A DNA stretch of 64,000 nt. It comes from Marinicella litoralis (GTDB lineage: Bacteria; Pseudomonadota; Gammaproteobacteria; Xanthomonadales; Marinicellaceae). The stretch spans positions 958,781-1,022,780 of the forward strand of contig NZ_NIHB01000001.1 in the NCBI RefSeq assembly GCF_002591915.1. Reading direction: 5' to 3'. Position numbers and translations under genes: made by a program. The notes beneath the pieces are model-generated. The model worked only from the letters and a program-made list of their open reading frames with translations. It made no database searches and was not told the DNA's origin. This document shows, one piece after another, positions 21,562 to 60,045 of the stretch (its first letter is position 1; each line of letters opens with the position of its first letter).

Positions 21562-22230
21562 ATGAAGTACTTTATATTTATATTGATTACTGCGGCGGTC
21601 GGTGTGCAAGCAGGCGTTTTTAGCAGTGAAAAAGTGGCCGCTGGCACCATTTCACCGGAAAAAGATTATGATTCTGTCAATGGCAGCATCACTGTTGGAG
21701 ACAAAGCCCACGTTGATGATTTAGATACTGTGAATGGCTCGATTAAAGTGGGCAAAGGCGCCACTGTTGGGCAAGTTGAAACGGTCAACGGCAGCATTAA
21801 ATTTGCCGACGGTGTCACCGCTGAACATGCCGAAACGGTCAATGGTTCAGTGTCACTGGGTTCAAACTGCATGATCAAAGGCCATGCAGAAACGGTCAAC
21901 GGCTCGGTTACTGCTGGCAAAGGTTGTGTGATTGAAGGTGGTATGGAAACGGTCAATGGCAAAATTTCAGCCAGTGGCACTGAAGTGGATGGTGACATCA
22001 AAACAGTCAACGGCAACATCACACTGGATCACGGTACGGTGGTACAAGGCGATGTGGTCATTGAAAAATCGACTGGCTGGTTCAACAGCAACAACAAAGT
22101 GCCAGAAGTGCATATTGGTGAAAATGTGGTGGTGAAAGGTGATTTGATCTTTAAAAAGAAAGTGAAGTTATACATTGCAGATTCCGCCAAGACGGGTGAA
22201 ATCATAGGTGATGACGTTATTGATATGTGA
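21562..22230 (+). CDS. secreted periodic VNGS-repeat beta-helix-like protein
   Basis: A 222-residue protein with a signal peptide (MKYFIFILITAAVGVQAG). Seven copies of a unit centred on [ST]VNG[SKN][IV] recur every 54 or 57 nt (18-19 residues) from about 21670 to 22020, followed by a C-terminal segment with hexapeptide-like VVQGDVVIEKS and NVVVKGDLIFKK. One 18-residue turn per repeat suggests a right-handed beta-helix of the bactofilin or DUF4097 kind, here exported. The start has AGAGG about 7 bases upstream. It ends 14 bp inside the 3' end of convergent folK. Function unknown. Confidence 0.7.
   Translation: MKYFIFILITAAVGVQAGVFSSEKVAAGTISPEKDYDSVNGSITVGDKAHVDDLDTVNGSIKVGKGATVGQVETVNGSIKFADGVTAEHAETVNGSVSLGSNCMIKGHAETVNGSVTAGKGCVIEGGMETVNGKISASGTEVDGDIKTVNGNITLDHGTVVQGDVVIEKSTGWFNSNNKVPEVHIGENVVVKGDLIFKKKVKLYIADSAKTGEIIGDDVIDM
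21670..22020 (+). repeat. seven in-frame 54/57-bp repeats
   Basis: The core GTCAAYGG (GTGAATGG in copy 2) begins at 21676, 21730, 21784, 21838, 21895, 21952 and 22006, so spacings are 54, 54, 54, 57, 57 and 54. Copies 3-6 share GAAACGGTCAAYGG. Other positions have diverged, so this is an old protein-level repeat. Confidence 0.85.
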
Positions 22231-23155: not shown

Positions 23156-24013
23156 ATGAAAAATGCCTTGTTATCCAGTTTGCTGCTGTGGTCAGTTGTT
23201 GCCTTTGGACAAACAGCCAAAGTTTTGATAGTCGGAGACAGTTGGGCCCAACAACAATATTCGGATGGTATCCATGATGCCGTGTTTGATGTGAATGGGT
23301 ACCCGGATATATCAATTTTAGACAATGCCGATGCAGCCGCAGTGGCCATTGATGGCACCACTGCAGAAGACTGGGTGGATCCTGTTGAATTACAAAAAAT
23401 CACCGATGCTTTGGTTAACAACCCTTCTGTTGATACCGTACAACTGACTTTGGGTGGCAATGATTTTTTAAATAATTGGCACACCGACATGACCCTGATG
23501 GAAACAGATGCATTGAAAGCAGGCATTGTGGCTGATTTACAAGTCATAGTCGATGCCATTTTGGCTGTTGACAGTCAAATTGAAATCATCATGAGTTTTT
23601 ATGATTATCCTAATTTTGAAGAAACCACATCTGGGTTTTTTGGTGAAACCTGCGCCACCTTGCACAACGGCATGTTGAACCCGACACCCAGTGAAATTAA
23701 TAACATGGCTTTGGAGTTTACCGATGCTTTTGTTGAAATTTCCAATCAGAACATCAAAGTGTTTCATGTACCGCATTGGGGTCGCATGCAAAACGCCTAC
23801 GGTTCTTCAGATGGGTCTTTTGGACCTGGTGATATTCCGTTGCCAGGATATACCGAATTAACCAGTCCATTGGTTGCCATGCGAACTCATTTTGGTTTCG
23901 TCAAAGATTGTTTTCATTTAGAGCCTGCCGGCTATGATATTTTGGTACAGGCTTTGTTTGAAGATTATTTCTTGTATCGATTTGACACCGTATACAAATC
24001 ACATTTTGAGTAA
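23156..24013 (+). CDS. secreted SGNH/GDSL hydrolase
   Basis: A 285-residue exported esterase-like protein. The signal peptide is MKNALLSSLLLWSVVAFG, and the start at ATG 23156 has GAGAGA upstream. Block I is VGDSWAQQ (catalytic Ser), block III LGGNDF (oxyanion Gly/Asn), block V DCFHLEPAGYD (catalytic Asp and His). The block II Gly is not obvious. The last residues, DTVYKSHFE, match the tail shared with two other secreted proteins in this window (38296 and 58342 genes). The 3' end overlaps convergent ispF by 15 bp. The substrate is unknown. Confidence 0.8.
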   Translation: MKNALLSSLLLWSVVAFGQTAKVLIVGDSWAQQQYSDGIHDAVFDVNGYPDISILDNADAAAVAIDGTTAEDWVDPVELQKITDALVNNPSVDTVQLTLGGNDFLNNWHTDMTLMETDALKAGIVADLQVIVDAILAVDSQIEIIMSFYDYPNFEETTSGFFGETCATLHNGMLNPTPSEINNMALEFTDAFVEISNQNIKVFHVPHWGRMQNAYGSSDGSFGPGDIPLPGYTELTSPLVAMRTHFGFVKDCFHLEPAGYDILVQALFEDYFLYRFDTVYKSHFE

Positions 24014-38295: not shown

Positions 38296-38667
38296 CTAGT
38301 CAAACCCTTCTTCGAACAGGGTATCGACATAAATACCATTGCTACATATGATGTCTGACGTTTCGCTGAAGAAATAGATCACGCCTTGTTTGACGTTATA
38401 GGTCATGCTGTTTAATCCGATGATTTCTTGGTTGCTGGTTAATGCAATCACTGAGGTGTCGATCGGTGGTTGGCCGTTGGCTTGTTGGCAATTATTCATG
38501 TTGCTGTCGAAATTGATGATTTGATTGTCAAAGTCGATGACCACTGTGCTGTTGATGATATAGGCATAACCATCCAATACAGGGGTAACAGCTTGTGCTG
38601 GATTTATAGCGGTCGCGCAAACAACCAAACCCAGTAGATGGGTTTTGGGTGGTTTAAAATTGTTCAT
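38296..38667 (-). CDS. small secreted protein with shared C-terminal tail
   Basis: A 123-residue protein from ATG 38667, with a signal peptide (THLLGLVVCATAINPAQA, cleavage before VTP). The frame opens earlier, at 38697, but the signal peptide fits the later Met. The mature part is strand-rich, with two Cys that may form a disulfide. I do not recognise the family. Its end, DTLFEEGFD, matches the tail of the beta-helix protein (58342-60045) and of the SGNH hydrolase (23156-24013). It is convergent with ligA, 16 bp apart. Confidence 0.65.
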   Translation of the reverse strand: MNNFKPPKTHLLGLVVCATAINPAQAVTPVLDGYAYIINSTVVIDFDNQIINFDSNMNNCQQANGQPPIDTSVIALTSNQEIIGLNSMTYNVKQGVIYFFSETSDIICSNGIYVDTLFEEGFD

Positions 38668-58341: not shown

Positions 58342-60045
58342 ATGAAAAAATTACTGATCTTATTTTTAATGATGACATTAAACACTTCACAGGCATTCGT
58401 AACAGTCGGCTTAGGACCTGATTGTGATTACGATAATTTATTTCCAGCATACAATGACAACGACCCTGAAGTCAGAGTGACTTCTGAACAACTGCATATC
58501 AATGATTTCACCATTGATAAGATTAAAGTGTTCAAAGGTGGCTATGACAATTGTTTGGCGGCTCAAGCCGACATAGCAGGCATCAATAAATCTCGCTGGA
58601 GTGGCCTTAATTCCAACAACAGAACTGTGGTTAAGGTGGCAGCCAATGAAATCATCACCATGACCGTAATCATCGAAGATTTTGAAATCTTTGATGGCCG
58701 CAACAACACCGCCAGCGGTGCAGGTGGAATCAAAGTATCAGGTAATACGAATTTAATTTTAAGAAATTCCGTGGTCTATGACAACGAAGGCAGTGAAGGG
58801 GCAGGGGTTCATGTGAGCGGAGAAGATGCGCGTTTTAGCATGGAAAATTCAATCATCAGAAATAACTTGGCGATTGGTTATGGTGGTGGGGTTTTTTGTA
58901 CTTCCGGGGCTACAGTGAATATCGATGCTGACAGTGCCATTCATGACAACACGGCTGACTTCAATGGGGGCGGTATTTTTGCACATGATGAATGCCAAAT
59001 AAGTAACCACAGTGGTCGCGACCATACCCAGCAAAATCCATCAGGTATCTATCAGAACGCAGCGAACAAAGGTGGCGGTATTTATTTACAAAGCGGCTCT
59101 CAACTGGACAATGAGGGCAGTGCAACGCATGCCGCCAGAATCACCCACAATATTTCCAGTGCCAATGATGGCTTAAATGGTGGCGGTATCTTTCTGACTG
59201 GAGTGGGTACCCGTGCGACCTTGCTTAATACCCTCATTGATGCCAATGAAGGTGCCTCCCTCGGCGCTGCCTTGGTGGTGACTGATTCGGCACAACTGAC
59301 CATGCATCAGGTCAGCCAAGCTTGTCAATATGCTGCTTCCGATGCCTGTTCATCGATCAAAGGTAATTACTTCATCACCACGGTGGGCGAGGGTGCAGCT
59401 GGCTATATTGGAGCAAGTGCCACAGCACATATTGCGCAAACTGAAATTGCTTTCAATCAATCCAATCACGTCAGTGGCTTTTTGGTGCGTGATGGTGCGC
59501 ATTTGTATTTAGAAGGCAACCTGTTCAGAGACAACATCGGTGTCAACCAAAACTTCAGCGATCAATTGTTCAAAATTGATGGCGCTGTGAATCAAGGCGC
59601 ACGATTGGATTTTATCTACAATACAGCGGTCAGAAATGGGCCCAACCATATATTTACTGCCGATAATACAGCCAGCATACAAACCTTGAATGTGTTTAAT
59701 TCAATTATATGGGACCAAGGCAATGTGTTTAATTTCAGTGGCAACGGCTTGACACAAATTGATTGTACTGTGGTGCATGAAAACCAAAGTTTAAGTGGTA
59801 ATGTGGGTGCGGTATTAACCAACGATCCCTTGTTCAACAATGTCAGCGAAGGTGATTTCCAACTGACCCTGGCCTCGGACCCGATTGATTTTTGTGACAA
59901 CAATTTATTTCCCAATCAACACAAGGACCTCAACAACCAAAATCGCGGCGTAGACACCAGTTCGGTGAACAATGCATTTGGCCCCTATGATGCCGGTGCT
60001 TATGAATTTGATGGCGATTTGATTTTCAGCCATGGATTTGATTGA
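58342..60045 (+). CDS. secreted right-handed beta-helix protein with Pmp-like GGGI repeats
   Basis: A 567-residue exported protein. The start at ATG 58342 has AGAGG 7 bases upstream, then a signal peptide (KKLLILFLMMTLNTSQA). Most of the mature part is parallel beta-helix turns: repeated GGGVFC, GGGIFAHDE, GGGIYLQSG and GGGIFLTG with NSxIRNN/NTLIDAN-type strands, as in chlamydial Pmp and choice-of-anchor proteins. The C-terminal region ends with GAYEFDGDLIFSHGFD. The last nine residues match those of two other secreted proteins here. There is no autotransporter barrel. A surface or extracellular role is likely. A CadC-like regulator gene is divergent. Confidence 0.82.
   Translation: MKKLLILFLMMTLNTSQAFVTVGLGPDCDYDNLFPAYNDNDPEVRVTSEQLHINDFTIDKIKVFKGGYDNCLAAQADIAGINKSRWSGLNSNNRTVVKVAANEIITMTVIIEDFEIFDGRNNTASGAGGIKVSGNTNLILRNSVVYDNEGSEGAGVHVSGEDARFSMENSIIRNNLAIGYGGGVFCTSGATVNIDADSAIHDNTADFNGGGIFAHDECQISNHSGRDHTQQNPSGIYQNAANKGGGIYLQSGSQLDNEGSATHAARITHNISSANDGLNGGGIFLTGVGTRATLLNTLIDANEGASLGAALVVTDSAQLTMHQVSQACQYAASDACSSIKGNYFITTVGEGAAGYIGASATAHIAQTEIAFNQSNHVSGFLVRDGAHLYLEGNLFRDNIGVNQNFSDQLFKIDGAVNQGARLDFIYNTAVRNGPNHIFTADNTASIQTLNVFNSIIWDQGNVFNFSGNGLTQIDCTVVHENQSLSGNVGAVLTNDPLFNNVSEGDFQLTLASDPIDFCDNNLFPNQHKDLNNQNRGVDTSSVNNAFGPYDAGAYEFDGDLIFSHGFD

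Follow-up and report, generated by a model that had tools for sequence, protein, structure and literature searches.

Dozens of exported proteins of Marinicella litoralis and its relatives, otherwise unrelated to one another, share a short carboxy-terminal tail – roughly D-x-I-F-x-[DN]-G-F-E – that is very probably a genuine sorting signal. We met this tail, hereafter the GFE tail, in a 64,000-nucleotide stretch of the M. litoralis genome (the window), and followed it through the genome and across related bacteria. The original prediction of a short C-terminal sorting or processing signal is supported by the many protein families that carry the tail, by its confinement to one order, by its replacement with an IPTL-CTERM tail in homologues and by the way it tracks sorting and secretion genes. 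It is best read as a helix-free C-terminal sorting tag, recognised past the inner membrane, which would feed a pathway that includes a type II secretion system (T2SS-A) and exosortase H (XrtH).

Table. Tailed proteins of the 64-kb window and their features.
Feature	Position	Strand	Basis
Exported, probably beta-helical protein, 567 aa, ends in tail	58342..60045	+	ORF, start at 58342; AF2 model
Probable Sec signal peptide MKKLLILFLMMTLNTSQA of beta-helix-like protein	58342..58395	+	crude hydropathy rule; cleavage site by eye
Tail DLIFSHGFD of beta-helix-like protein (L008), directly before stop	60016..60042	+	pattern scan
123-aa exported protein (L007), ends in tail	38296..38667	-	ORF; tailed paralogue L010
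Tail DTLFEEGFD of 123-aa protein, directly before stop	38299..38325	-	pattern scan
SGNH/GDSL-type hydrolase with signal peptide, ends in possible variant tail	23156..24013	+	ORF
Possible variant tail DTVYKSHFE (H for G) of SGNH hydrolase, membership uncertain	23984..24010	+	scan

The three tails are where they had been described, with stop codons ending at 60045 (+), 38296 (-) and 24013 (+), and a six-frame scan of the window for [FY]xx[GHDNS]F[DE] before a stop returns these three only. As a tail shared by three proteins the prediction stands for DLIFSHGFD and DTLFEEGFD; DTVYKSHFE has H where the strict pattern demands G, the SGNH protein gave no tblastn match to any of the loci compared, and its standing as a true tail is without support and doubtful. 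The proteins had also been called unrelated. Among the three this is so, but two of them have tailed paralogues: L038, 54% identical to the beta-helix-like protein, and L010, 32% identical to the 123-aa protein over 103 aa in an alignment that extends into the tail. Lipase_GDSL was matched by one, not itemised, of 33 scanned proteins. The AF2 model of the beta-helix-like protein, made from a two-sequence alignment (mean pLDDT 59.5), is nearly all strand, and Foldseek ranks beta-helix proteins, PL6 alginate lyases among them, as its closest PDB matches (best E 0.011; none at E<=0.001); residues 467-567 fall below pLDDT 50, so the model is uninformative on the tail. The window also encodes an exported protein of TVNGSI-type repeats (21562-22230), which is without tail.

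Across the whole M. litoralis genome (G000) the strict pattern NTNTWYNNNNNNGGNTTYGANTRR – [hydrophobic]-[FY]-x-x-G-F-[DE]-stop, the TRR of the DNA pattern also admitting TGG – matched 35 times (22+13), against twice for the reversed control. Three matches were set aside: L024, which ends in TGG, L029, a 12-aa frame, and L020/L039, a 51-aa frame lacking a signal peptide. The last of these (L039:4365-4520, on G000:C12) is a perfect DLIFEDGFD-stop and is perhaps the remnant of a tailed gene. The remaining 32 of 35 are open reading frames of 96-1698 aa, all of which have a signal peptide, 30 of Sec type and 2 of Tat type (L015 and L050, DUF1501-type proteins with an RR motif), as called by a crude hydropathy rule and reading by eye rather than by SignalP. 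The predicted enrichment among exported proteins is thus borne out: 32 of 32 strict-tail genes encode a signal peptide, whereas this liberal rule accepts 29% of genes (123 of 419) across 464 kb of the own genome, comprising 400 kb of spaced stretches and the window. No strict tail occurs in those 400 kb, against about four expected, and two are in the window. By the same rule applied to tail-centred stretches, signal peptides are present in 19 of 21 tailed and 47 of 156 untailed genes of the own genome (Fisher 1e-7); across seven genomes the figures are 46 of 57 and 166 of 639 (Fisher 3e-16), gene calling being crude in the GC-rich genomes, where several missed signal peptides are, by eye, wrong starts. 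One further exported protein of 1064 aa (L380, G000:C1:1280001-1300000) ends in DLIFENNFELVLP, tail-like with four extra residues; since the strict pattern misses this end, the own tail counts are probably lower bounds.

The 32 distinct own tails have D at -9 in 87% and I at -7 in 93%. Position -6 holds F (87%) or Y (12%), -4 is mostly D, H, S or N, and G-F-[DE] closes the tail; the [FY], G, F and [DE] positions are imposed by the search pattern. Among 69 distinct tails from other genomes F occupies -6 in 100%, D or N occupies -4 in 82% and the final residue is E in 85%. The placement of the tail exactly at the stop codon holds as a rule – it is true of all 32 own tails – but in relatives there are also variants with up to about five extra residues. 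Searched for in frames of 40 aa or longer within the loci fetched, [ILV]F.[DNSH]GF[DE] gave 97 distinct occurrences, of which 87 end at the stop; this proportion is biased, most of the loci having been chosen through the stop motif itself. A lineage variant, DRFEP-stop, was found 19 times among 62 genomes, in seven that all belong to genus g282 of family f190 (7 of its 14 genomes), with none for the reversed control; a further match, in G527, ends in TGG and was not counted. Two proteins, L034 (3428-5725) and L098 (7146+), end in two tandem tails (DLIFEDGFDPFIDLIFIDGFE and DLIFSNGFESDVIFKDGFE, respectively). The motif also stands at an N-terminus: at L083:11650+ (G372) a tail-like IFASGFE directly follows the signal peptide of a protein that is, by eye, DUF1800-like, and the adjoining DUF1501-like gene is without tail.

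The hosts of the tail are diverse. The 32 strict-tail proteins together with the SGNH protein match 31 Pfam families, and each of the best 25 of these is matched by one or two tailed proteins; among the matches are M14, M28 and S8 peptidases, cupredoxin, GSDH, FG-GAP, DUF1501 and GDSL lipase, and the hosts further include beta-propellers and a 96-aa protein. NCBIfam ties hosts to choice-of-anchor B, J and Q proteins, to rhombosortase- and myxosortase-dependent M36 families, and to the secreted enzymes ExeM and LapA, several of them below curated cut-offs. Two familiar kinds of C-terminal signal find no place here. The BAM beta-signal belongs to barrel proteins with a C-terminal aromatic residue (F or W); a final F or W was excluded beforehand, as the searched pattern ends in E or D by definition, and no barrel appears among the Pfam-matched hosts shown, which are enzymes, repeats and propellers. 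Substrates with a type I secretion C-terminal signal are without an N-terminal signal peptide, and we reject this candidate because all 32 own hosts have one.

Choice-of-anchor B proteins (TIGR04312) occur in 18 of 59 genomes, among them none of 8 untailed f2 and none of 11 untailed f3 genomes, and many tailed genomes are also without them. Sixteen of the 18 C-termini are GFE-like (L310, from G446, is not; L303 runs off its locus), three only being strict tails. The GFE-like ends include DVIYIDGFD, DVLFRNGFE, DLIFIDGFD, DVIFVGNFD, LFDNGFEQP, QIFADGFGP, VLFANGFEMPVR and SLFKNNFEAGAR; those of f190 read LFRDGFEQAAK, IYADGFEGDQR, HIDGFESGLR, ILETGFETASR, PFSDSFETVAP, LIFADRFQ, IYGDRFAP and EIFGDRFEP. 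Exchange of the tail for an IPTL-CTERM end is seen in L367, an IPTL-CTERM protein of G516 whose N-terminus lies outside the locus: over 500 aa it shares 43% identity with the own protein L037, in the C-terminal half of the latter, and the match stops 8 residues before the L037 end, where L037 has DLIFSHGFE and L367 continues via a linker to IPIPTLDQWALLVLLLLMAGIGMLGLRRR. A weaker pair, L364 (IPTL) and L188 (GFE), 31% identical over 372 aa, shows the same exchange.

Taxonomically the tail is confined. A stricter pattern matched in 32 of 369 genomes sampled from the class, with more than two matches only in G000 (27) and in G367 (5), a member of the same order; in a phylum sample 11 of 299 genomes had a match, and more than one only in these same two. 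Within the order (Xanthomonadales/Lysobacterales) 118 of 299 genomes matched, with up to 63 copies per genome against at most 3 for the reversed control, and 80 of the 299 carry 6-63 strict copies and make up the group with at least five tails. Strong counts are therefore limited to the order, where they are patchy, and outside it the counts are background. The scan also bears out the IFxxGFE endings that had been suggested for related gammaproteobacteria. In the own family, f1, 32 of 33 genomes have 9-58 tails; the one tail-less genome (G384, genus g274, 4.7 Mb, 100% complete) has neither XrtH nor GspG of either type. At least five tails occur in 2 of 78 f2 genomes and 10 of 76 f3 genomes. 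Named genomes among the matches listed are mostly Marinicella, Dokdonella, Pseudofulvimonas, Lysobacterales/Rhodanobacteraceae and vaguely labelled proteobacterial MAGs, together with several labelled Alcanivoracaceae and single ones labelled Xanthomonas, Sedimenticola and Bacillota.

The tail belongs to none of the C-terminal sorting systems with which we compared it. It had been set apart from LPXTG, PEP-CTERM and GlyGly-CTERM, and so it proves, IPTL-CTERM included: it has no helix, eight C-terminal 45-mers gave no match to curated CTERM models at E<=10, and the 33 full proteins matched no CTERM or tail model among the best 25 of 55 NCBIfam families. The IPTL-CTERM/exosortase H system (TIGR04174/TIGR04177) is alike in being C-terminal, in occurring several times per genome, in largely the same genomes and at the same position in homologues; it differs in that its ends, of which 17 were read, carry a transmembrane helix and a basic terminus, in contrast to the roughly nine soluble residues with which GFE proteins finish at or close to the stop codon. 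GlyGly-CTERM/rhombosortase (PMC3237569) likewise places one C-terminal signal on many proteins, with overlapping host families and a co-occurring T2SS, but the GFE tail has no glycine-rich motif, helix or basic end, and rhombosortase is rare: TIGR03902 scored over its cut-off in 3 of 46 genomes (G413, G165 and G417, with 1, 0 and 0 strict tails), none tail-rich, which leads us to reject it as partner. Sub-cut-off rhomboid matches occur in all 46 genomes and in all 14 controls. MYXO-CTERM/myxosortase resembles the GFE tail in marking dozens of proteins per genome, and its surface sorting relies on T2SS (PMC11980579), a route proposed here for the GFE tail too; the invariant cysteine, helix and Arg-rich end of that signal have no counterpart here. 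Loop 3 of PelI (PMC7949064) is, like the tail, a nine-residue element on a folded cargo and a determinant of T2SS, the proposed reader of the GFE tail; it nevertheless belongs to a single substrate, and T2SS substrates have no linear sequence in common there, whereas the GFE tail is one linear tag on unrelated proteins. No description of the tail was found by title or abstract among open PMC papers. Type IX secretion also uses a C-terminal export signal, but its domains are folded, about 70-100 residues long, and found in Bacteroidota.

A central issue is what recognises the tail. No clear partner gene lies beside tail genes in 61 stretches from seven genomes; the untailed families that come back in four of the seven look by eye like a response regulator, an ECF-type sigma factor and a kinase, the last two in stretches of G000, G370, G380, G412 and G457. 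We turn to co-occurrence, taking as a near-complete set the 225 order genomes at least 95% complete, of which 49 have at least five tails (tailed) and 176 fewer. PF09721 was matched in 21 of 46 genomes, and three of the small proteins so found score 162-202 bits with the XrtH model (TIGR04177, cut-off 86). XrtH is present in 49 of 49 tailed near-complete genomes and in 35 of the 176 others; over all order genomes the counts are 76 of 80 and 75 of 219, and none of the four tailed genomes that lack it is more than 89% complete. Of the 78 f2 genomes only the two tailed ones have it (by hand count, 2 tailed genera only of 21), and within f3 it occurs in 4 of 4 tailed and 1 of 18 untailed genera, also counted by hand. 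IPTL-CTERM matches (TIGR04174, E<=0.1, many weak) accompany XrtH in 65 of 68 genomes and appear in 2 of 12 without it, there at E 0.05 or more; at this level 2 of 14 control genomes match too, none over cut-off. The three XrtH genomes lacking such a match are G435 (18 tails), G507 (36) and G456 (0), and among XrtH genomes the numbers of GFE and IPTL tails are uncorrelated (Spearman -0.03). In 20 loci (L331:8126-8665 and 19 others) XrtH often lies, by eye, near aroK/aroB-like genes and apart from its targets, as a long-resident chromosomal gene would; its neighbours look, again by eye, like epimerase, dodecin, pdxH or aroKB genes, and none of the adjoining genes has an IPTL-like end.

T2SS follows the tail less strictly. 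GspG (TIGR01710) splits into two score classes, the canonical one with E at most 1e-43, and canonical GspG is present in 46 of 49 tailed near-complete genomes against 46 of 176 with fewer tails, and in 67 of 80 against 66 of 219 when all 299 order genomes are taken; the genomes are related, so that Fisher values for such comparisons overstate independence, and the partner test covered chosen candidates only. XrtH is the stricter correlate of the two. Among the 84 near-complete XrtH genomes, five tails are reached by 46 of 65 with canonical GspG and by 3 of 19 without it: G461 (98% complete; 7 tails), and G397 and G382, two assemblies of 420-460 contigs, all having XrtH and only the second GspG type. 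We read 59 GspG loci, with 4-20 kb fetched, and counted as anchored those beside rsmE, bioA, cysQ, pilI or chpA. Main loci were anchored in 33 of 34 cases from tailed genomes (34 of 67 such genomes read), in 0 of 13 from untailed f2 (of 24), 0 of 3 from untailed f3 (of 3), 2 of 3 from untailed f189 (of 4) and 4 of 4 from f190 genomes with fewer than five tails (of 34); neither G389 nor G408 has its second copy anchored. In f2 and f3, then, anchoring goes with the tails, whereas f190 and, in f189, G446 and G491 keep the anchored system without many strict tails. On a GspG tree the tail label changes 8 times against 18.8 in shuffles, a contrast eased by near-copies.

T2SS-A is not strictly necessary, as G461 shows, nor is it sufficient: in f190, 34 of the 43 genomes combine canonical GspG with a strict-tail count below five, the DRFEP-stop variant accounting for only part of these exceptions, and G446 and G491 have an anchored locus with 1 and 0 tails. 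These cases weaken T2SS-A alone as the full explanation, just as f189 and genus g302 weaken XrtH alone. Gene neighbourhood lends support to neither, a strict tail gene being found at 1 of 20 XrtH loci (in G405, with 52 tails) and 1 of 60 T2SS loci (in a tail-rich genome).

How might the tag work? Tagged proteins would cross the inner membrane by Sec or Tat, and folding in the periplasm would leave a free, exposed and presumably uncleaved C-terminus, D-x-[ILV]-F-x-[DN]-G-F-[ED]. Its presence on both Sec and Tat cargos suggests that it is read after the inner membrane. The tag would then deliver its cargo to an outward pathway that appears to be inherited in the order together with exosortase H and a canonical T2SS, that is, T2SS-A, the system at a conserved place beside rsmE/bioA/cysQ/pilI. 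A periplasmic part of T2SS-A is the most likely reader, in which case tagged folded proteins would be secreted or displayed; proteins needing a membrane-held intermediate would use an IPTL-CTERM tail and XrtH instead. T2SS is a known route for folded Sec and Tat proteins, and the N-terminal Sec or Tat signal expected of its substrates is present in 32 of 32 own strict-tail genes (at least 96 aa). For a tag without helix T2SS-A is a more plausible reader than XrtH. As a whole, a sorting tag linked to T2SS-A is an explanation we hold tentatively, a shade short of even confidence; that T2SS itself reads the tag is possible, although we lean somewhat against it; and rather doubtful is the most specific form of the idea, a linear and transferable signal, one free C-terminal nonapeptide that the T2SS-A of this order would read on folded proteins, dozens of them and unrelated, exported by Sec or Tat, and whose lineage variants (GFE, GFExxxR, DRFEP) would co-evolve with the reader. 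A T2SS link is known for GlyGly-CTERM and MYXO-CTERM proteins (PMC3237569 and PMC11980579). In Haft and Varghese 2011 (PMC3237569), T2SS components score high for GlyGly-CTERM though the enzyme is rhombosortase, and no special T2SS subclass was found; by this precedent the T2SS link of the GFE tail may be indirect, for co-occurrence is not recognition.

Alternatively, the tail could be a second, helix-free class of XrtH substrate, its end recognised and processed by XrtH or a co-working protein. The unbroken association in near-complete genomes (49 of 49), the coincidence of XrtH with the two tailed f2 genomes, the occurrence of GFE and IPTL-CTERM at the same place in homologues, and the two f1 genomes (G435 and G507) that have XrtH and tails with no IPTL-CTERM match at E<=0.1 all speak for this. 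We nonetheless consider it unlikely, though a serious rival: known sortase and exosortase targets have a motif, a transmembrane helix and a basic end (PMC3237569), of which helix and basic end are missing from the GFE tail; the usual IPTL-CTERM targets, many weak, already explain the presence of XrtH in 65 of 68 genomes; and 16 of the 19 XrtH genomes without canonical GspG have fewer than five tails. Of like improbability, and a rival as serious, is a non-covalent anchor, whereby the tail would bind a surface or periplasmic receptor and be lost along with an ancestral envelope repertoire. Conserved aromatics and a terminal acid on a free, short C-terminus would suit a binding pocket, many hosts look like surface or choice-of-anchor proteins, and the tails may have gone with XrtH and T2SS-A in a common loss of surface biology; against this, the 61 stretches of seven genomes gave no receptor candidate, the untailed families recurring in four genomes looking by eye like regulators.

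Considerably less probable is a structural cap or a remnant, by common descent, of a C-terminal domain with no role in trafficking. MAM/choice-of-anchor J domains begin with a strand that the tail resembles, in L037 the signal peptide is directly followed by DLLLEGFE, and beta domains are common to some hosts; yet the tail sits alike on peptidases, cupredoxin, beta-propellers, DUF1501 proteins and a 96-aa protein, signal peptides are present in all 32 own cases, and an IPTL-CTERM end replaces the tail in a homologue. Chance similarity had some appeal while there were three window cases, one of them imperfect. It is refuted by the reversed-pattern controls (35 against 2 genome-wide, and, in single genomes of the order, as many as 63 against no more than 3), and we give it next to no credence.

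Recruitment of cargo by T2SS was called elusive in 2021, with no linear sequence common to substrates (PMC7949064). The Gram-negative C-terminal sorting signals compared here need a membrane helix; the GFE tag is a nine-residue free C-terminus. Its presence at 6-63 strict copies in 80 of 299 genomes of the order and its absence from most sister-family genomes amount to a natural experiment. The tag would help to annotate many choice-of-anchor and hypothetical proteins, and it might serve as a secretion tag.
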